Assembly (NCBI GenBank): GCA_023268675.1
Contig: JALQTV010000005.1
Span: 1 to 37,744, forward strand
From: Saprospiraceae bacterium
GTDB lineage: Bacteria; Bacteroidota; Bacteroidia; Chitinophagales; Saprospiraceae
DNA length: 37,744 bases
Direction of reading: 5' to 3'
Shown piece by piece: positions 25,192 through 35,377 of the stretch. Within the stretch, counting starts at the first letter, position 1. Each line of letters starts with the position of its first letter. A program made the translations under genes and the position numbers. The notes under the pieces were generated by a model. That model searched no databases and had not been told where the DNA came from. It was given only the letters and a program-made list of their open reading frames with translations.

Positions 25192-26307
25192 ATGCTTTTA
25201 AAAAACATAGAAAAACCGACACTTTTACTCGATCCCAAAAAATGCCTGTCCAATATTGCAGCCATGGCTACCCGTGCTAAAAATGCAGGAGTACATCTAC
25301 GCCCACACTTCAAAACACATCAGTCTCACGAAATAGGCAACTGGTTCCGGGATTACGGGGTAGACCGCATCGCTGTTTCCTCGCTAAGGATGGCTGCTTA
25401 TTTTGCAGCGGATAGCTGGCGTGACATCACGGTCGCTGTCCCCGTAAACCTGAGAGAAATCAAACTGATTAATGAGCTATCGCAAAAAACAACCCTTAAT
25501 CTGGTAGCAGAAAGCATCGAAGCCCTCCAATACCTTGAAAAGTACCTGGACAGGTGTGTCAATATCATGATAGAAGTAGATCCCGGCTACCACAGGACGG
25601 GCCTGGAATGGGAACAAGCGGACATAGTAGATGCCATGATCAATTTAATCGAAAAATCCGACAAACTTCGCTTCGAAGGCTTGCTAAGTCATGCCGGCCA
25701 TAGTTATCATGCACAAGGCAGCGCTGAAATCATGAACATACACAGGGAAAGTGCCGGCCTTTTCGAGCGTTTTGTCAACCGATACAAGGCTCAGTTTCCG
25801 GAGATGTGCACCTCTCTTGGCGACACTCCAACTTGCAGTACAGCTGAAGCTTTTCCAGGAGCAACTGAAATTCGCCCGGGCAATTTTGTTTTCTATGACC
25901 TCACTCAGCATCATATAGGATCTTGCCAAAAAGAAGAGATCGCCGTAGCCATGGCCTGCCCGGTTTTGGCAAAGCACCCATCCAGAAACCAGCTCGTGAT
26001 TTATGGTGGAGGCATCCATTTTTCCAAAGATCGGCTCCAGCTACCCAATGGGCAACTTTCTTACGGAGAAGTGGTAAAGCTCTTGCCGGATGGCAGTTGG
26101 CACCCCATGGATACTCCCTTTCAGGTAATTTCCCTTTCTCAGGAACACGGTGTCGTTCAAGTCGATACCGAATGGATCGAAAAAATCCAACCCGGAGACC
26201 TGATCGGTGTGCTTCCAGTCCATTCCTGCATGACAGCAGATTGCATGAAGAGCTACCTGTCGCTTGAAGGCAAGAAAGTAGATATGTGTAAAATTTACGA
26301 GTGGTAG
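25192..26307 (+). CDS. D-threonine aldolase / D-serine dehydratase-like PLP-dependent enzyme (alanine racemase N-terminal fold)
   Basis: 'KPTLLLDPKKCLSNIAAMATRAKNAGVHLRPHFKTHQ', 'GLLSHAGHSY', C-terminal 'PVHSCMTADCM' metal-site pattern. Confidence 0.87.
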   Translation: MLLKNIEKPTLLLDPKKCLSNIAAMATRAKNAGVHLRPHFKTHQSHEIGNWFRDYGVDRIAVSSLRMAAYFAADSWRDITVAVPVNLREIKLINELSQKTTLNLVAESIEALQYLEKYLDRCVNIMIEVDPGYHRTGLEWEQADIVDAMINLIEKSDKLRFEGLLSHAGHSYHAQGSAEIMNIHRESAGLFERFVNRYKAQFPEMCTSLGDTPTCSTAEAFPGATEIRPGNFVFYDLTQHHIGSCQKEEIAVAMACPVLAKHPSRNQLVIYGGGIHFSKDRLQLPNGQLSYGEVVKLLPDGSWHPMDTPFQVISLSQEHGVVQVDTEWIEKIQPGDLIGVLPVHSCMTADCMKSYLSLEGKKVDMCKIYEW

Positions 26308-26319
26308 CAATCTACCTTG

Positions 26320-27165
26320 TCATAGCAAGGTCTTGGCCGGAAAAACCAAGATGGGAACCTTCGTATGATAAGACAAAGTCTTGGCTTTGCTGTAATTGAA
26401 CAATTCCTGGAAGAAATTGCGCTCGTGGCTCACCATACTCAGGATATCTATCTTATGCAGATCCAGGTACTCGGTAATTCCCTGCATGATGTCTGAGCGA
26501 TCCATGATTTCCATAGAAAGGCCATGTAGTGCATCAAACTTTTCCAACCATTTTTCTCCCTGATGGCTGTATTTGGCTATATGGGCCGTATCAATATTGA
26601 TGCAATGTACCTTGGCAGCAAAGGGCTCGGAAAAAGCAATGGTCTCCTCCAAAGCACGAGCCTCTTCCTCCGTAAAATTGGTTGTAAAAGCCACCTGATC
26701 AATGTTTCCGTCAAAAACAGCTTTCTCCGGTACCACCAAAACCGGGCAGGATGCATATTCCAGCACTTCCCCTGCAACCGAACCCAGTACGATGCCCTTG
26801 AGACCACCGGCTCCAGTCGTTCCCATGACGATCATGTCGATCTCGTCTCTTTTTGCCACATCAAGAATGGTTCCGACAGTAGGACCTTCCATCAGTACAT
26901 GCTTGATTTCGATGTAATCAAAGCCATTATCAATTGCCAATTGTTTCAACACAGGAATTTCATCCTGGTAGTTCTTAAACTGAAACTCGTCAATCGATTT
27001 GTAAAAATTTTCGAGTTCTGGCGCCAGTCCGGTTCCGGCGACAGCCGGGAGCTGGTAAACATGAAGCAAGACAATGGAGGCATTCCACTTGTCTGCTACC
27101 TGAAGGGCATATATGAAGGCATTGTGCGCTGCTGCGGAAAAATCAGTGGGAAACAATATTTTCAT
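26320..27165 (-). CDS. Universal stress protein (two tandem Usp domains)
   Basis: MKILFPTDFSAAAHNAFIYALQVA...DMIVMGTTGAGGLKGIVLGSVAGEVLEYASCPVLVVPE, followed by a second degenerate Usp domain. Confidence 0.92.
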   Translation of the reverse strand: MKILFPTDFSAAAHNAFIYALQVADKWNASIVLLHVYQLPAVAGTGLAPELENFYKSIDEFQFKNYQDEIPVLKQLAIDNGFDYIEIKHVLMEGPTVGTILDVAKRDEIDMIVMGTTGAGGLKGIVLGSVAGEVLEYASCPVLVVPEKAVFDGNIDQVAFTTNFTEEEARALEETIAFSEPFAAKVHCINIDTAHIAKYSHQGEKWLEKFDALHGLSMEIMDRSDIMQGITEYLDLHKIDILSMVSHERNFFQELFNYSKAKTLSYHTKVPILVFPAKTLL

Positions 27166-27282
27166 GAAACTCAATTTTGGTCTGTTCAATTCTTCCCCCT
27201 AATATACAAGGATTTTGCCGGATGAAAATGCGGCATTGCGCATTAAACGATAAATTAATATAGACCTACCTGACTAAAATAC

Positions 27283-27317
27283 AACGAGGCCCTGAGTTTT
27301 GAACCCAGCGCCTCGTT
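27283..27317 (-). terminator. Hairpin downstream of the rhodopsin gene
   Basis: AACGAGGC/GCCTCGTT arms with further inner pairing (CTGAGTT/AACCCAG); moderately T-rich minus-strand flank. Confidence 0.5.
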
Positions 27318-27346
27318 TTTCCTACAATTCAGTTTAGGGAATAAAA

Positions 27347-28087
27347 TCAGGCAGCAGCCTGCGTTTTGGAAATGGCCAGAGAATAAATCACCAAACCAAA
27401 ACCAATCTTGTTGACTGCATCACCTATGTTGTAGATGATATCCATCGCATTACCGGGGATTGCACCTGCCAGCCAACCAGTTTCTATGGTCATATAACCA
27501 ATCGGATAGATGGCCCAGCCTGCGAAGATAAACCAACCAAGGGTTGAAAAAGCTTTTTGCAAAACAGGATCGTTGGAACCACTGGCCAATTTTTTGGCAG
27601 AGCCAAACCATACCTCATACGCAATCAATACGTACCCTATGGTAGAAATCATACCCCAAAGTGGTGAACTGTCGCGATAAACAGTCTCTCCCAGGTAGCC
27701 TGCAACCAACATGAGCAGGGAGTAGAAAATCATTTTCCACAACAAACCTGCTTTTGCACCAAATGCACGAAGGATCAGGTAAAATTCAACGCACATCAAA
27801 GGAACAGTCAAAATCCAGTCGATGTAACGGAATTCTGTTGGAGAAGCCTGGTTCTCAGCCCAGAAATCACGCATGTAAAAATAATGAACCGCAGCGATGA
27901 AGGTAATCAAACCAGATACCAACATGGAATCCTTCCATTTGCCGGATACCTGTCCCATCTGGACAAAAAAGAATACCGTCGCAGCAGCCATTGCCATGGA
28001 GCCAATAAAGAAGGTGAAACCAACATAGTCACCTGATTGCAAAGTGGCTAGAAACAGCCCATCAAAGTTGTTTAGTAATACATCCAT
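27347..28087 (-). CDS. Proteorhodopsin/xanthorhodopsin-type light-driven proton pump
   Basis: Helix C RYIDWILTVPLMCVEFYLIL (D/T/E at GPR D97/T101/E108), helix B AAVHYFYMR (H75 equivalent), helix G NIGDAVNKIGFG (retinal Lys). Start at MDVLLNNFDG preferred. Confidence 0.96.
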   Translation of the reverse strand: MDVLLNNFDGLFLATLQSGDYVGFTFFIGSMAMAAATVFFFVQMGQVSGKWKDSMLVSGLITFIAAVHYFYMRDFWAENQASPTEFRYIDWILTVPLMCVEFYLILRAFGAKAGLLWKMIFYSLLMLVAGYLGETVYRDSSPLWGMISTIGYVLIAYEVWFGSAKKLASGSNDPVLQKAFSTLGWFIFAGWAIYPIGYMTIETGWLAGAIPGNAMDIIYNIGDAVNKIGFGLVIYSLAISKTQAAA

Positions 28088-28147
28088 TTTTTGTGATTTA
28101 GTTAAATTACAGTTAAAGTGTCGGTAAAACTTGACTAATAACAAAGA

Positions 28148-29074
28148 TCATTTTGAATTGTTTAAATTTTCATAAAGCTTTTCCATTAAAATCATGTGAG
28201 GAAGCGTCAGCACCGCGATAAAGACAAACAATGAAGCCAGATTCCCCTCCATGAGATCGCTGTATTGCCAGAAAACAAAGGCACCAAGACCCAATAAGGC
28301 AAGAATGGTCATGGGCAAAATTTGACGCAAGTAGTGACCCCAGCGGTATTTTGGACGGTCTCCGGAGAAAAACGCCACCTGATCCTGCATGGAACCCAGA
28401 GAATGCCAAAGGGTAAAATATACTGCGAAGGACAATAGTAAGGGTAAAACAAAAAAGGACAACTCCAGTAATGCCAAATGTAAGACCTCGCGCAGAAAAT
28501 CATTCCTATTGATCCATCCCCGGAAACGCAAATACAAGACCATACTCAGATTTACTAACAGCAATAGTCCTGCCCACAACGACGTATTTCCCGATATTTC
28601 AACAGGGCTCCCTACAATCTGAGAGACGATAGCAAGACTCGTTTCCGAATGAAATAGTAAGGGTGTGAAAATCACCCACAAGCCCCAGATCAGGCTGACA
28701 ACAAATTGAGCTTTTTTCCTAGGCAGAGGCATGAATGACCAGTTTGCCTGGCCAAAATGATACGCACTCATCAACAGAAAAAGAACCAAAGAAAAAACAG
28801 GAAATTGCCACCAGCCCAGAGCATACAGGCCCATTAAACCCAAATAAGCCAGAAAAAATAAGCTCCATTTGACCCGGCCCCATTGGCGGAGGCTTAAGCG
28901 GGAAAAAATCAAATGGTCAGTGGCACCATGGGGGATCCCCACAAATAAAATCAACACAACAGCGACTATCCAGGCGTGCTGTGACCAAAAATGCGGCATC
29001 AGCACCCCCGATAACAGCAGCAACAGTGTTAAGGATAGAATTACTGCGTATAAAAAGGGATATCTAATAATCAT
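28148..29074 (-). CDS. blh: Brp/Blh family beta-carotene 15,15'-dioxygenase
   Basis: Polytopic; His motifs FVGIPHGATDHLIF, AYHFGQANW, LWHSLGSMQDQ, LPHMILMEKLY; between crtY and rhodopsin. Confidence 0.93.
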   Translation of the reverse strand: MIIRYPFLYAVILSLTLLLLLSGVLMPHFWSQHAWIVAVVLILFVGIPHGATDHLIFSRLSLRQWGRVKWSLFFLAYLGLMGLYALGWWQFPVFSLVLFLLMSAYHFGQANWSFMPLPRKKAQFVVSLIWGLWVIFTPLLFHSETSLAIVSQIVGSPVEISGNTSLWAGLLLLVNLSMVLYLRFRGWINRNDFLREVLHLALLELSFFVLPLLLSFAVYFTLWHSLGSMQDQVAFFSGDRPKYRWGHYLRQILPMTILALLGLGAFVFWQYSDLMEGNLASLFVFIAVLTLPHMILMEKLYENLNNSK

Positions 29075-30281
29075 AGCGATACCTGATTTTTAACTTTTTC
29101 CGATATTTCTTTGTAAGTCCTGAGAATCCCGGCAGGTACACCCTCCGTAATGCCCTCAAAAACACTCCCACAGGTAACCTGGAAAAAATGCGTACCTCCG
29201 CAGGAATACGACTGCGTTCTTCCAAAAATCTCAGAATATGATCCATGCGGTTCCGTTGAAACAAAGACAAGAAAATGCTTCCTGCATGATGGCTCTCCTC
29301 GTTCAGAATGTTCAACAACAGCTTGTCGTAAAACCTAAATCGTTTCCTCTCACGATAGATGAATCCAGGATCCTTGCCCAGAGCAAGAGCTTCGGCCAAA
29401 GCACAACTGCGATCAAGCGTGCGTGTAAATGCATAACCGGTACTTGGCTTAACCCAACCTCCTGCCGTGCCAATATTCAGAATATTTTCCCCATGATAAG
29501 GGGAGAATCGGCGATCTGTCATAGGAATGGCCCCTTGTTCCACTTCTTTAACCTTCCACTGCTTTAGTCCAAGCTTAGTCCGGATATATCCATCCAGCTT
29601 TTCATCGTACACTGCATCGGCTAAAAGGCGGGGAGAGAAGACAGTGTATTCAATCAAAGCACTGCGCTCATCAAAGGGCAATACATAAAAAAATCGGGCT
29701 TCAGGTGCGGCTGTCCCTTCGAAAAAATCCATCAATACCGGTACCTCAGGGTCAAAAACAGCTTTCTCGCTTTCTACCACCCATCCCCTGAAATGCTGCC
29801 ACAAAAAAGTGGATCCAGGTACCGATTTGGATACAAGTGCAAGGGAGGGTACGCTGTTCAAAATCATATCTGCCTCGTATTCAGAACTATCCAAAAGCGA
29901 CACACAAGCTTTTTCACCATTACTCCTGATGCTCGCAACAGATGCTTGCGACCACTGGAAACGACCGTCTTTTTGAAGTGCATTCTTGATAAACTGATAA
30001 TAATCCCGGCTCCTGATGAGGCGATATCCCGGTCCGGAAATAGCGTCCTGGGTCCTAAATTCCCCACAGGCAAAGGATAGTTGGTGCCAGGTCTTACTGA
30101 CCAGAGGCTCGAAATCTGAGGGAATCTCTGACCAGAAACACCAGGTTCTGTCATTGCCTTCCTTTTCCTCCTTGTCTATGATCAAAGCCGATTTGAAAGA
30201 ATGCCGGCTAAGGGACAAAAAGTAAGCTGTCGTTAATCCCGACAAGCCCCCACCTGTGAATATGAAATCAAATTTTTTCAA
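29064..30281 (-). CDS. crtY: Lycopene beta-cyclase
   Basis: FIFTGGGLSGLTTAYFL, NDRTWCFW, IGTAGGWVKPSTGYAFTRTLDRS; overlaps the blh start by 11 nt. Confidence 0.93.
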   Translation of the reverse strand: MKKFDFIFTGGGLSGLTTAYFLSLSRHSFKSALIIDKEEKEGNDRTWCFWSEIPSDFEPLVSKTWHQLSFACGEFRTQDAISGPGYRLIRSRDYYQFIKNALQKDGRFQWSQASVASIRSNGEKACVSLLDSSEYEADMILNSVPSLALVSKSVPGSTFLWQHFRGWVVESEKAVFDPEVPVLMDFFEGTAAPEARFFYVLPFDERSALIEYTVFSPRLLADAVYDEKLDGYIRTKLGLKQWKVKEVEQGAIPMTDRRFSPYHGENILNIGTAGGWVKPSTGYAFTRTLDRSCALAEALALGKDPGFIYRERKRFRFYDKLLLNILNEESHHAGSIFLSLFQRNRMDHILRFLEERSRIPAEVRIFSRLPVGVFLRALRRVYLPGFSGLTKKYRKKLKIRYRYDY

Positions 30282-30327
30282 TTGACTTATTTGCCGTAAA
30301 TAATCAAAATAAATAAATCATACGACA

Positions 30328-30346
30328 AACAAAATTTCAATTTGTT
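30328..30346. repeat. Near-perfect dyad AACAAAATTTCAATTTGTT upstream of crtY
   Basis: Left arm AACAAAATT, right arm AATTTGTT; lies between the predicted crtY promoter and the crtY start. Confidence 0.5.
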
Positions 30347-30373
30347 CAAACAACCGAGAATAAATCAGCGAAA

Positions 30374-30402
30374 CAAATTTAGCGCTCATCCTATTCCTGC
30401 AA
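30374..30402 (-). promoter_or_regulatory. Candidate promoter of the crtY-blh-rhodopsin operon
   Basis: Minus strand TTG (30402-30400), 18 nt, TAAATTTG (30381-30374): full match to the Bacteroidota -33/-7 pattern. Confidence 0.65.
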
Positions 30403-32517
30403 TCAGTCTGCTTTTATCAAGTTAGATAGCAACTTAGGTGGTTTGAACCGGGGGCCGTGAACCGACTCGAAATGGGCGCATCTCGACAAGAAAGCACTGA
30501 CCCCGTAATCATGTACAAATTGAATGACTCCTCCCTTAAAAGCCGGAAAACCCCAGCCATAGATGCTTCCCAGGTTGGCCTCGGCTTCTGTACGGATGAC
30601 TCCTTCCTGCAAGCACCAAAAGGCTTCAATGACCTGAACGAAAAGAAAGCGCTCGAAAATTATTTCTGGAGTTTCTTGTACTTCAGGACTGCCTTCGAGG
30701 GAATAATCTTGCTTCCAGAGCCATTTTTCTTCTCCTTCATAGGTGTAAAATCCTTCTTTAGCAGTTTTACCCGGACGATTCCATTCGCCCAACATGCCTT
30801 TGAGAGTATTGACGGCAGGGTGCTTAATGTAGCGCACACCGTAGTGTTCTGCTGCCTGTTGCTCATACTTCAGGACTATCTCAAGGCCGAGATCGTCAGC
30901 AAGTTCTAATGGTCCGCGTGGCATACCGGATTGGCGACTCATATTTTCTATCAGCACAGGAGCAAGCCCTTCCTGCAGCATCGCAATGCCTTCCAGAATA
31001 TAGGTATTTTGCACACGAGCAGCATAAAAACCCCAGACGTCCTTGACCACAATGGGAATTTTTCGCATGCTTCTTACAAAATCAAAAGCCCGGGCAATGG
31101 CTTCGTCCGAACTCTCTTTTCCACGCACAATTTCTACCAACGGAACCTCTTCTACCGGTGGAAAAAAATGCAATCCAACATAATTTTCAGGCCTCTGACA
31201 CGCGGCTGCCAAGGTAGATATGGGAATAGAAATAGAGTTGCTCCCAAAAAGGCTGTATTCGTCCAAAAAAGATTCTGCCTCTCGGGTCACCTTGTACTTG
31301 AGCGAATAATTTTCAAAAACTGCCTCCACCACAATATCGCAATGCTCAAAATCAGCCGCCTGATCTGTTACCTTAATCCGACCCAACAAAGCCTTGCTTT
31401 CACTGTCATTGATGCTGCCCTTTTGTTCCAGCTCTGACAACTTTCCTTCGATATAAGCAATCGCATTGGCTGCAATCAGACGCGATACGTCTTTGATGAC
31501 TACAGACATCCCGTTGAGCAAACACGATAAGGCAATGCCTGATCCCATTTTCCCTGCACCAATAATGCCTACCATTTTGGGGCGAAACTTTCCAAATCCT
31601 TTGGGACGTGCTTCGCCTCGCTCTATGGCTTTCCTGTCAAGCCAAAAAGCTTTTATCATGTTTTTTGTGGCTGCTCCCTTCAACAATTTGGTGTAATACC
31701 TGCTTTCTATGCGGCAAGCGGTATCAAAATCCACTCTCGATCCCTCGTACAATACGTGGACAATGGCCTGCGCTGCAGAAAAATAAGAGGGCTTGGTGGC
31801 TGTAATTTCCACACTCTTCTCCCGCAAAAAACGAAGGTTAGCCGGATTGGAAGCGTCTCCGCCGGGTATTGCACAAGCTTCTTTGTCCCAGGGTCGTCGC
31901 GCTTCTCCTTGTTGCAAAAGCCAGGACTTCGCCATTTCCATCATAGCTCTGTTTCCGGGAGCCAATTCGTCGACCAATCCCGCCTTGAAAGCTTCCCGTG
32001 GAGTATACCCAAATTCACTGTTCAGTACCTGGAAAGCCTGTTGTATGCCCAACAGCCACATCAACCTCACTGTCCCACCACTACCGGGAATCAAGCCCAT
32101 TCCCGCTTCGGGCAAACCCAGCGTGATGGTGGGTTTGTCAAGGACAATTCTGTGATGACAAGCCAGTGCAAGTTCGAAACCTATGCCCTGGGCATCGCCA
32201 TTGATGGCCGCAACAACCGGCACTCCCGGGCTTTCGATTTCCCGCAAGAAAAATTTGAGTTGCTCGCTGAAAGCAAAAATTTCCGCTGCATCATCCGCAT
32301 GATACAGGTAATCCAGGTCTCCACCAGACAAAAAAGTACTCTTGGCAGAACTTATGATGACCCCACGAAGCAAACCCCTTGCTTTTTCTGCTTTCAAATG
32401 ACGAACAACCGGGATAAAGGCATTGCCAATCTCGTGATTGATTACATTATTTTGCCGCCCTCCCATATCCAGGATAAGCGTGACAATATTATCGGTATCT
32501 TTTTGGTATTTTATCAT
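30403..32517 (-). CDS. Enoyl-CoA hydratase / 3-hydroxyacyl-CoA dehydrogenase fusion (FadB/FadJ-like)
   Basis: Crotonase domain with both Glu (GIGFELALAC, GLPEAGMGLIPGSGG), Rossmann VGIIGAGKMGSGIALSC, and GLHFFPPVEEVPLVEIVRG. Confidence 0.93.
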   Translation of the reverse strand: MIKYQKDTDNIVTLILDMGGRQNNVINHEIGNAFIPVVRHLKAEKARGLLRGVIISSAKSTFLSGGDLDYLYHADDAAEIFAFSEQLKFFLREIESPGVPVVAAINGDAQGIGFELALACHHRIVLDKPTITLGLPEAGMGLIPGSGGTVRLMWLLGIQQAFQVLNSEFGYTPREAFKAGLVDELAPGNRAMMEMAKSWLLQQGEARRPWDKEACAIPGGDASNPANLRFLREKSVEITATKPSYFSAAQAIVHVLYEGSRVDFDTACRIESRYYTKLLKGAATKNMIKAFWLDRKAIERGEARPKGFGKFRPKMVGIIGAGKMGSGIALSCLLNGMSVVIKDVSRLIAANAIAYIEGKLSELEQKGSINDSESKALLGRIKVTDQAADFEHCDIVVEAVFENYSLKYKVTREAESFLDEYSLFGSNSISIPISTLAAACQRPENYVGLHFFPPVEEVPLVEIVRGKESSDEAIARAFDFVRSMRKIPIVVKDVWGFYAARVQNTYILEGIAMLQEGLAPVLIENMSRQSGMPRGPLELADDLGLEIVLKYEQQAAEHYGVRYIKHPAVNTLKGMLGEWNRPGKTAKEGFYTYEGEEKWLWKQDYSLEGSPEVQETPEIIFERFLFVQVIEAFWCLQEGVIRTEAEANLGSIYGWGFPAFKGGVIQFVHDYGVSAFLSRCAHFESVHGPRFKPPKLLSNLIKAD

Positions 32518-32544
32518 GAGGCGCGGGCTTAAAAATTTGCGATA

Positions 32545-33726
32545 TCAGAGATTTTCGATGATCATGGCGGCACAGCTACCCGAACGATCACCCAGCACGA
32601 GCATACCCCGTCCGGCTCCCTTGTTTTTCAGGTCTTCCAGCAACCGAACCAGCAATAGTGCGCCATTCGCACCGGCTGGTCTGCCAAAAGCCAGGTTGCC
32701 TCCCCCTGCATTGATTTTTTCCGGAGGAAGAGTCATTTCCTTCTGAAAAGCCAGTGCGATTCCGGCAAAAGGCTCGTCGCAGGTCCACAAGTCTATGTCC
32801 TCCTTCGTCAAGGAAGCTTGTTGCAATGCTTTTTTAGCGACAGCCGGCATCCCTGAGAAAGGGAGCCCGGTAGTACTTTCTTCCAGAGAGTAGGCCAAAA
32901 TACGCGCCAGCGCAGTCCCCTCTTCTCCGGCAGAAGCATCGCCAAGCATCAACATGGCCATCCCATCGACCTCCGAAGCAGTTGTAAAACCACTATGCAC
33001 CGGGGGGAAATGTTCCAGTGAAGTAAAATGCTTTTGAATCAACGGCAAATAGCACTGATACACCTCCCTGGTTAGCAGCGGGGTTTCGCCTTCGGCAAAA
33101 AAATCAGCAGCACCGGACAGTTGATCCTCGGCCAGTAACACCAGTTTGTTTTCATCGTAGAGGTGTTTCAGGAAAGAAACGCCGGAAGAAACGTTTTCCC
33201 GACAGCGCCTGCGAGATGCTTCCGCATATTCAAAAAGTTCGGAAGCAGAAATCTCCCAAAGGTGGGCCTGGAGGTCCGCGGAAAAAACAGCCGGCACATT
33301 GGCAGGCAAAATGGCCAGATCGGGATCATCTGTCCAGGGGCCACGGTCCTGTCCCGGTTCCAGACGGCTTTGCAACTCCATACCACCCGCAATGATGCGC
33401 TGTTGGAAACCTGCTGCAATTTTGGCGGCAGCCAGCCCGATAGCGTCAAGACCACTGAGATCAAAACGGTTGATCTGAATACCTGAAGTGTACAATTGTC
33501 CTGCGTGCAGAAGCCCTGCACGTGCAATATTTTGACCCATATCTCCCAAAGGAGTGGTACAACCGAGAATGAGATCCTGAGCTGGCAAACCTATTGGATT
33601 TCGCTCTGCTATAGTCAACAAACATTGACGGAGCAAGTCCACAGGCCTCAATTCGTAATAAGCACCTCCCTGCCCGCTTTTCGCCAAAGGCGTACGCAAG
33701 GCATCGTAAATGTAAACCGGATTCAT
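32545..33726 (-). CDS. Thiolase-superfamily protein lacking catalytic residues (pseudo-thiolase)
   Basis: 'YDALRTPLAKSGQGG', 'GQNIARAGLLHAG', 'INRFDLSGLDAIGLAAAKIAAG', 'IIAGGMELQSR', 'CDEPFAG', 'NAGGGNLAFGRPAGANGA' align with thiolase motifs, with the active-site residues substituted. Confidence 0.88.
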   Translation of the reverse strand: MNPVYIYDALRTPLAKSGQGGAYYELRPVDLLRQCLLTIAERNPIGLPAQDLILGCTTPLGDMGQNIARAGLLHAGQLYTSGIQINRFDLSGLDAIGLAAAKIAAGFQQRIIAGGMELQSRLEPGQDRGPWTDDPDLAILPANVPAVFSADLQAHLWEISASELFEYAEASRRRCRENVSSGVSFLKHLYDENKLVLLAEDQLSGAADFFAEGETPLLTREVYQCYLPLIQKHFTSLEHFPPVHSGFTTASEVDGMAMLMLGDASAGEEGTALARILAYSLEESTTGLPFSGMPAVAKKALQQASLTKEDIDLWTCDEPFAGIALAFQKEMTLPPEKINAGGGNLAFGRPAGANGALLLVRLLEDLKNKGAGRGMLVLGDRSGSCAAMIIENL

Positions 33727-33881
33727 AGGCTAAGGATATTTGGTCTGAACGCGGGGTTCGTTTGCTTCAAATTTGCAGATAATTATCAGGAAAAGCGCAA
33801 CAAAAGACCACTCTTTTCCACTTTTCATCCCGAAAAGCGAAAGTCCGGTAGATTAGCCATGATTCCTTTTCGGGAGAGACT

Positions 33882-33889
33882 TATATTTG
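33882..33889 (+). promoter_or_regulatory. Candidate -7 box (TATATTTG)
   Basis: Perfect TAnnTTTG ending 12 nt before the ATG at 33902; no clear -33 TTG. Confidence 0.4.
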
Positions 33890-33901
33890 CAAATAAAAAT
33901 C

Positions 33902-34234
33902 ATGGCCAGAAAAATAAAATTGACCGTTTTTTCCAGATTCCTCATCGTAATGCTTTTCCTTGGCCCTCTCGCATATATGGGAGCCTCTTACTACAACGGC
34001 GAAGACGGCCTGGCAAACCTTAAAAATTTGTTGGGCATAGAAACTACCTCCGGTACAAATCCAGACAATCAGACCACTACCGAGGAAGACATCCCCGCAG
34101 ATACACCTGTCAGAACAGACGCTGAATTGCTGCGACTGGAACAGGAAAACCTGGCATTGAAAAAGCAATTGCTTTCTAAGGACGAAGAAATATTGCAGCT
34201 GAAAAAAGAAATTGCAGAACTAAAATCACGGTAA
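33902..34234 (+). CDS. Small single-TM protein with C-terminal coiled coil
   Basis: MARKIKLTVFSRFLIVMLFLGPLAYMGASYYN (TM), acidic/Thr-rich linker, heptad 'LLRLEQENLALKKQLLSKDEEILQLKKEIAELKSR'. Start at 33902 preferred. Confidence 0.65.
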   Translation: MARKIKLTVFSRFLIVMLFLGPLAYMGASYYNGEDGLANLKNLLGIETTSGTNPDNQTTTEEDIPADTPVRTDAELLRLEQENLALKKQLLSKDEEILQLKKEIAELKSR

Positions 34235-34255
34235 TTTTTTGGCCTGGCCACTCCC

Positions 34256-35377
34256 CTACAACAGGTTTTCGTACAAACGCATCAACTGGTCTGTAAGCAA
34301 TTCGCTGTCGAATCGCTGCACATACTGATACCCCTCTTCTATTGCCTGCTTCCTGAAAGTCTCATCGCTCAAAAGGAGGCTTATTCCTGCAGCAATTTCT
34401 TCGCTACTGGCAGGATCCACCAAAACGGAGGAAGGACCCGCTGCCTCAGGCATAGACGATACTTTGGACGAAATTACCGGTGTCTTGCTGTAAAGTGCCT
34501 CTATCACGGGTATTCCAAATCCCTCATAAAAAGAAGGATAGATAAACAAAGAAGCCCGTTGGTACAAAGCCGGAAGTTCGGCGAAGTTGATTTGTACAAA
34601 AAACACCCGGTCACTCAAACCTGCTTTGTGCAGGTATTCCTGTACCGTTTTTTTGTATTGCCTGCCGTTTCCCACCACTACCAGCGGTATCTTTTCAGAC
34701 TCGGGCAATAGTTCCATAGCCTGAACTACCTTCAGAAGGTTTTTCCGGGGAATAATGGACCCCACAAACAACATGAAGGTCTCCGGCAATCGGTATTTTT
34801 GCAGCACTTGAGCAATGGTCCTATCCGATAAATCCTGTTTGAAAGAATCATGACAGGATTGGTAAATGACCTCGATCTTTTCAGGAGCTATGTCGTAATA
34901 ATCGATGATGTCCTCTCGGGTCGATTCACTGATTGCAATGATGCGATCTGCATGTTCGCAGGCATACCTAAATTTCCAATCGTACATTTTCCTGTCAAAA
35001 GTACTGTAGTAACCCGGATATTTCTTAAATACCAGATCGTGTATGGTAACTACCGTTTTGAGCGGTAATTTATCGATGCCAAAAGGAATCTCATGGCTTA
35101 AGCCATGATAAATATCGATCTTGTTTTTGGTGAGTGTTTTTTTTACGCCCAGACTTCGCCAAAAAGGCCTGTCCCAGGTTCCTGGCTGAACGACCTGAAA
35201 CTGGGGGTTGCTGAGAAAAAATTGCGTCTCTGCATGTACCTTTACCCCCGGAGTGTACAAAAAAAGAGGATTCTCCGGATAATGCTCGGCAAAGTTTTTC
35301 ACCAGGGTGCGGCTGTAATTGCCTAGTCCGGTAAAGTTGTTGAACAAACGCTTCGCGTCGAAACCTATCCTCAACAT
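34256..35377 (-). CDS. Glycosyltransferase family 4 protein
   Basis: GLGNYSRTL, 'VGSIIPRKNLLKVVQAMELL', 'YPSFYEGFGIPVIEALYSKTPVISSKVSSMPEAAG' GT-B motifs. Confidence 0.94.
   Translation of the reverse strand: MLRIGFDAKRLFNNFTGLGNYSRTLVKNFAEHYPENPLFLYTPGVKVHAETQFFLSNPQFQVVQPGTWDRPFWRSLGVKKTLTKNKIDIYHGLSHEIPFGIDKLPLKTVVTIHDLVFKKYPGYYSTFDRKMYDWKFRYACEHADRIIAISESTREDIIDYYDIAPEKIEVIYQSCHDSFKQDLSDRTIAQVLQKYRLPETFMLFVGSIIPRKNLLKVVQAMELLPESEKIPLVVVGNGRQYKKTVQEYLHKAGLSDRVFFVQINFAELPALYQRASLFIYPSFYEGFGIPVIEALYSKTPVISSKVSSMPEAAGPSSVLVDPASSEEIAAGISLLLSDETFRKQAIEEGYQYVQRFDSELLTDQLMRLYENLL

Follow-up and report, generated by a model that had tools for sequence, protein, structure and literature searches.

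A non-catalytic TFE beta-type thiolase subunit, probably a structural core component, and recurrent loss of thiolase catalytic residues in Saprospiraceae

The gene at positions 32545-33726 (minus strand) of the analysed window, a 37,744-nucleotide stretch forming part of a Saprospiraceae genome (contig JALQTV010000005.1), encoded a pseudo-thiolase of 393 aa related to the beta subunits of trifunctional enzymes (TFE), and the residues at all four of its catalytic positions were replaced. This protein, hereafter the window beta, is probably a non-catalytic pseudoenzyme of an MtTFE-type complex, its dimer serving as the core of an alpha2beta2 hydratase-dehydrogenase while thiolysis would be left to other thiolases. 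The original prediction described an intact reading frame with every catalytic motif replaced, and this was borne out by the DNA reading, by alignments and by structural modelling; its coordinates were right, while the minus strand had been left unstated.

The reading frame was uninterrupted and its product scored above the Pfam cut-offs for both Thiolase_N and Thiolase_C, while none of the 25 NCBIfam models among the matches listed reached its cut-off. Among solved structures, the best phmmer match was the MtTFE beta subunit FadA (Rv0859, E 3e-59), with residues 4-392 of the window beta aligned on residues 5-402 of Rv0859. An AlphaFold2 model, based on a 53-sequence alignment, displayed a full-length thiolase fold (mean pLDDT 89.8, pTM 0.92). 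In Foldseek, the model matched MtTFE beta chains best among PDB entries, with TM ~0.9 and an rmsd of 2.2 A at the lowest, and the top 26 matches were MtTFE chains without exception. Rv0859 ranked first by sequence as well as by structure, most other thiolases scoring far lower, and the window beta is evidently a TFE beta by descent and not another type of thiolase. The observation is far beyond chance, because both Pfam domains passed their cut-offs and a relative from the same genus carries Asp, DEPF and GRP at 55% identity.

Thiolases operate through a nucleophilic Cys, an oxyanion hole formed by His and Asn, and a second Cys acting as base. In MtFadA numbering, this quartet consists of Cys92, Asn327, His359 and Cys389. 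The window beta displayed Asp89 (GAT, 33460-33462) at the position of the nucleophile, Asp317 within CDEPF (32776-32778) at that of the Asn of NEAF, Arg349 (AGA, 32680-32682) within FGRP at that of the His of GHP, and Gly379 within LGDRSG (32590-32592) at that of the second catalytic Cys of CxGGG (CIGGG), all on the minus strand. The minus-strand DNA reads ATC AAC CGT TTT GAT CTC AGT GGT (INRFDLSG) around Asp89 and GGC AAC CTG GCT TTT GGC AGA CCA (GNLAFGRP) around Arg349, which confirmed the two codons initially reported. The predicted changes of NEAF to DEPF and of the C-terminal Cys to Gly were likewise recovered, the quartet columns being identical in the phmmer alignment with Rv0859 and in an alignment of more than 100 homologues. 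Mis-registered motifs were ruled out by the full-length alignments together with the AlphaFold2/Foldseek match. The original prediction had allowed for a true active-site Cys or His lying elsewhere; neither the full-length nor the >100-homologue alignments placed an alternative Cys or His in the four catalytic columns of the window beta.

Thiolysis by the window beta should be impossible, because the whole quartet on which the established mechanism depends is replaced. That some thiolase activity persists through other pocket residues is extremely improbable: the fold was fully kept, but the nucleophile, the base and both oxyanion-hole side chains had changed together and no replacement Cys occurred in those columns. 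The conserved loop HTxGNSSGxxDG was also altered, reading HSGFTTASEVDG, with its Asn and Ser gone, and this loss makes ordinary handling of CoA substrates seem less likely in the window lineage.

Conservation within the genus was assessed on two genomes only, that of the window (G000) and G001, a Saprospiraceae MAG carrying locus L058; the genome_contigs scan returned this other genome of the genus as its sole match. Gene order was conserved between the two loci from the cysteine desulfurase gene through the rhodopsin and universal-stress genes. The betas were 55% identical and the alphas, encoded by the adjacent gene, 77%. L058 displayed Asp, DEPF and GRP, with Ala at the fourth position, so that Cys and His were not retained in the orthologue either. 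The substitutions Asp/Asp/Arg appear to be neither an artefact nor local decay, because they recur in this other genome at 55% identity and with synteny conserved. A sequencing or assembly artefact was rejected, as two separately assembled genomes carry the same substitutions at such a distance. A decaying pseudogene was disfavoured too: both genomes lacked stops, pN between their betas was 0.32 against a pS of 0.76 (dS was saturated and omega not estimable), and omega was about 0.1 in other clades of catalytically dead betas. The corresponding pN of the alphas was 0.14. The four catalytic loops were more conserved between the two betas than the remainder of the protein, with 30 of 37 positions identical against 180 of 348 elsewhere (Fisher p 0.0008).

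The neighbouring gene (30403-32517, minus strand) started 27 bp downstream of the beta gene on the same strand and encoded a TFE alpha-type subunit combining enoyl-CoA hydratase and 3-hydroxyacyl-CoA dehydrogenase. Its product matched the MtTFE alpha subunit FadB (Rv0860) at E 3e-157 and contained the Pfam domains ECH_1, 3HCDH_N and 3HCDH. Equivalents of E119/E141 (the hydratase glutamates), GxGxxG (the NAD motif) and H462/E474 (the dehydrogenase His-Glu pair) were all kept. The window pair therefore resembles MtTFE (FadA Rv0859/FadB Rv0860; PDB 4b3h, 7o4q) in the full-length homology of both subunits, in the retained catalytic residues of alpha and in the predicted fold of beta (TM ~0.9). It differs by displaying Asp, Asp, Arg and Gly in place of Cys92, Asn327, His359 and Cys389, by its changed GNSSG loop, and in the surroundings of the KAT225 loop, which lines the HAD-to-KAT path in MtTFE and near which the window beta is diverged and carries short deletions. 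The ECH and HAD residues of a functional trifunctional enzyme are thus present in the window alpha, whereas the KAT residues are missing from the window beta. A retained non-catalytic protein, possibly the structural mate of the FadB-like partner, had been proposed at the outset, and this gains support from the homology of both genes, throughout their length, to the subunits of one complex.

Beta-type matches at E <= 1e-48 were encountered in 162 of the 398 family genomes searched. The quartet was read in 101 proteins, namely those of 100 fetched loci and the window, nearly all from Saprospiraceae; one fetched locus (G050) belonged to another family of the order. Cys/Asn/His/Cys was kept in 64 of the 101 and altered in 37, of which 33 lacked the nucleophile. 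The intact Saprospiraceae betas, unlike the window beta in their quartet, were 30-40% identical to it and were accompanied by an alpha neighbour where the flank reached. Altered quartets were characteristic of particular genera. All 20 species of genus g7 displayed Asn/Asn/Glu/Asp, seven species of genus g87 displayed Gln/Asn/Glu-or-Asp/Ala-or-Ser, and the window genus displayed Asp/Asp/Arg/Gly-or-Ala. Singletons without the nucleophilic Cys comprised Asp/Gln/His/Gly, Arg/Ser/Phe/Ala, Glu/Tyr/Ala/Pro and Ser/Asn/His/Cys; those with it comprised Cys/Gly/Tyr/Ser, Cys/Asn/Gln/Cys, Cys/Asn/His/Pro and Cys/Asn/His/Ser. In other families of the class, all 30 beta loci were intact, a sample biased by consisting of the best matches to an intact query. 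Within g7 (L060, L098, L100, L106 and 16 more loci), 75-89% of catalytic-loop positions were invariant, compared with 48% overall. Complete alphas beside altered betas all kept Glu/Glu, GxGxxG and His/Glu; in a few altered loci alpha was truncated by a contig end or missing from the flank retrieved. The original prediction had correctly recognised a dead thiolase beside a FadB-like gene, while it missed both the recurrence across the family and the MtTFE type of the partner.

Parsimony on the alpha tree called for at least four changes for loss of the Cys and at least six for any alteration. A single ancient loss was rejected, as grouping all Cys-less loci together was incompatible with the alpha tree (p-AU 4.9e-10); one loss common to the window genus and g7 was also rejected (p 0.002), but a loss shared by the window genus, L089 and L062 was not (p 0.60). 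Catalysis appears to have been lost several times, because the alpha tree rejects the grouping of all Cys-less loci, on the assumption, suggested by their adjacency, that alpha and beta have a common history. The beta tree placed the long dead branches together, a grouping that may reflect long-branch attraction, and the alpha tree was therefore chosen for counting losses.

Among close pairs, the median omega of betas was 0.09 in g7 and 0.11 in g87; intact betas had a value of 0.04 and alphas 0.03-0.07. Where it could be measured, that is in g7 and g87, dead betas are by this measure constrained, although less tightly than live ones. Two expectations of a retained non-catalytic protein were thereby checked: the orthologue in the window genus kept Asp, DEPF and GRP, and equivalent losses beside an intact alpha recurred elsewhere in the family, with the dead betas of g7 and g87 under purifying selection. 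When identities to a reference panel of intact loci were compared, the difference beta minus alpha averaged +0.05 in intact loci and ranged from -0.07 to -0.24 in lineages that had three or four of the residues replaced; the alphas of dead and intact lineages were similarly close to the panel, and dead betas evidently diverge faster than their alphas. This faster divergence, together with the long beta branches, would be expected of a relaxed, dispensable beta in slow decay, its thiolase function having moved elsewhere. Such a course is very unlikely and already disfavoured: the reading frame was intact in both species of the window genus, full-length dead betas were kept under purifying selection in the 20 and seven species of the two other genera, and the new residues were conserved within genera, the catalytic loops showing higher conservation than other parts of the protein.

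Retention of a dead beta for the sake of assembly appears the simplest reading, because the beta2 dimer forms the core of the tetramer in solved TFEs, with the alpha chains sitting on it (PMC11301753), because truncating variants in either gene of human TFP lower both subunits (PMC11385086), and because an MtTFE variant carrying beta C92A was crystallised with alpha and beta chains (PDB 7o1g). A role as scaffold holding the complex together is, judging by the sequences, most likely. The beta dimer would still form the core on which two alpha subunits assemble, and its retained task would be the assembly and stability of the alpha2beta2 complex of hydratase and dehydrogenase. The residues that now fill the emptied active site probably stabilise the closed core; Asp89 and Arg349, replacing the Cys-His pair, could form a buried salt bridge. 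The 3-ketoacyl-CoA would be released and cleaved in trans by a separate canonical thiolase of the genome, or used otherwise. Other full-length thiolases with an intact quartet numbered two in G000 and three in G001. Acyl-CoA dehydrogenase-family matches numbered six in each of these genomes, and six or seven across G000, G001 and G007. A beta-oxidation cycle in which thiolysis takes place away from the complex would be plausible, because such intact thiolases and acyl-CoA dehydrogenases are present. A search found no second alpha-type enzyme in G000 (88.5% complete), G001 or G007.

What speaks against a pure scaffold is the conservation of the remodelled loops, which was higher than elsewhere in the protein in both the window genus and g7. 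Such conservation need not occur in a pure scaffold, yet those loops are also structural. A remodelled pocket with new catalysis, acting on 3-ketoacyl-CoA or another CoA ester delivered by alpha (through hydrolysis, decarboxylation, or a retro-aldol or retro-Claisen reaction), would account for loops exceeding background conservation in the window genus and for the near-invariant loops and fixed Asn/Asn/Glu/Asp of the 20 g7 species; the aldolases Ltp2/Sal, moreover, arose from the thiolase fold using other residues (PMC12329534). It is nevertheless rather unlikely, as almost every lineage had its own replacement for the Cys (Asp, Asn, Gln, Arg, Glu, Ser) with no single new motif, the GNSSG loop was lost in the window genus, the neighbour is not a DUF35 protein such as partners the characterised Ltp2/Sal aldolases, and beta evolves faster than alpha. 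A beta that senses CoA esters and regulates alpha allosterically, instead of being a passive scaffold, would fit the retention of fold and partner and the constraint on the pocket loops; it is nonetheless quite improbable given that the Asn and Ser of GNSSG were lost in the window lineage and that no positive sign of a ligand was encountered. The most far-reaching proposal is that Saprospiraceae several times independently swapped thiolysis for sensing of the channelled 3-ketoacyl-CoA or for a different last reaction on it, with a new active or ligand-binding site at Asp/Asp/Arg in the window genus and, still more so, at the fixed Asn/Asn/Glu/Asp in g7. This is speculative and on the whole unlikely. 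From its sequences, the g7 clade would be the best candidate for a new ligand or reaction.

Ltp2/Sal steroid aldolases (PMC12329534) resemble the window beta in combining a thiolase fold with a rebuilt active site, but they belong to the SCP2-thiolase branch, have a DUF35 partner and carry a YDHF/YDCY motif, whereas the window beta belongs to the TFE beta branch and has a FadB-type partner. An Ltp2/Sal aldolase identity was rejected on these grounds: the nearest relatives were TFE betas, the partner was of FadB type, and no YDHF/YDCY-type motif occurred at the CDEPF region. BbsCD, according to its citation in PMC10818641, is a heterotetrameric dehydrogenase that contains pseudoenzyme subunits devoid of activity (von Horsten et al. 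2021). As described there, it likewise keeps a dead subunit in an enzyme of a beta-oxidation-type pathway, but it is a short-chain dehydrogenase, while the dead subunit of the window belongs to a different enzyme, as its thiolase partner. Precedents thus exist both for inactive subunits of beta-oxidation-type enzymes (BbsCD) and for thiolase folds turned aldolase. No pseudo-thiolase TFE beta subunit was found described in the open-access literature searched, although this does not prove that no description exists.

Repeated abolition of the third TFE site, with both the subunit and its partner retained, amounts to a natural experiment separating the structure of the thiolase dimer from its catalysis. 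The recurrent loss in beta also questions how essential HAD-to-KAT channelling is. For about one third of the examined loci, automatic annotation as acetyl-CoA acyltransferase would be incorrect.

In the window alpha, Ile took the place of the active-site Ser of the dehydrogenase (SNTS in MtFadB), and most family alphas had Ile, Val or Leu there. This replacement is not linked to the loss of beta catalysis, because it was seen beside intact betas as well as dead ones; it suggests a change in HAD kinetics or specificity. The alphas of L145 and L157, both beside intact betas, each lacked one of the two hydratase glutamates (Gly and Gln in its place, respectively), and partial loss in the complex may thus also run in the opposite direction, with alpha losing residues.

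Promoter and terminator scans over 26200-34300 yielded hits at chance level only. Co-directional genes downstream of alpha (27347-30281, minus strand), assigned by Pfam and regarded as context only, encoded a lycopene cyclase, a beta-carotene dioxygenase (Blh) and a rhodopsin. Their order was shared with L058 (10838-13858) and hence by both genomes of the genus. The lycopene cyclase gene crtY was also found directly downstream of alpha in five other Saprospiraceae loci, all with an intact beta (L092, L103, L112, L128 and L143); overall, crtY lay directly 3' of alpha in six of the 71 loci having enough flank.
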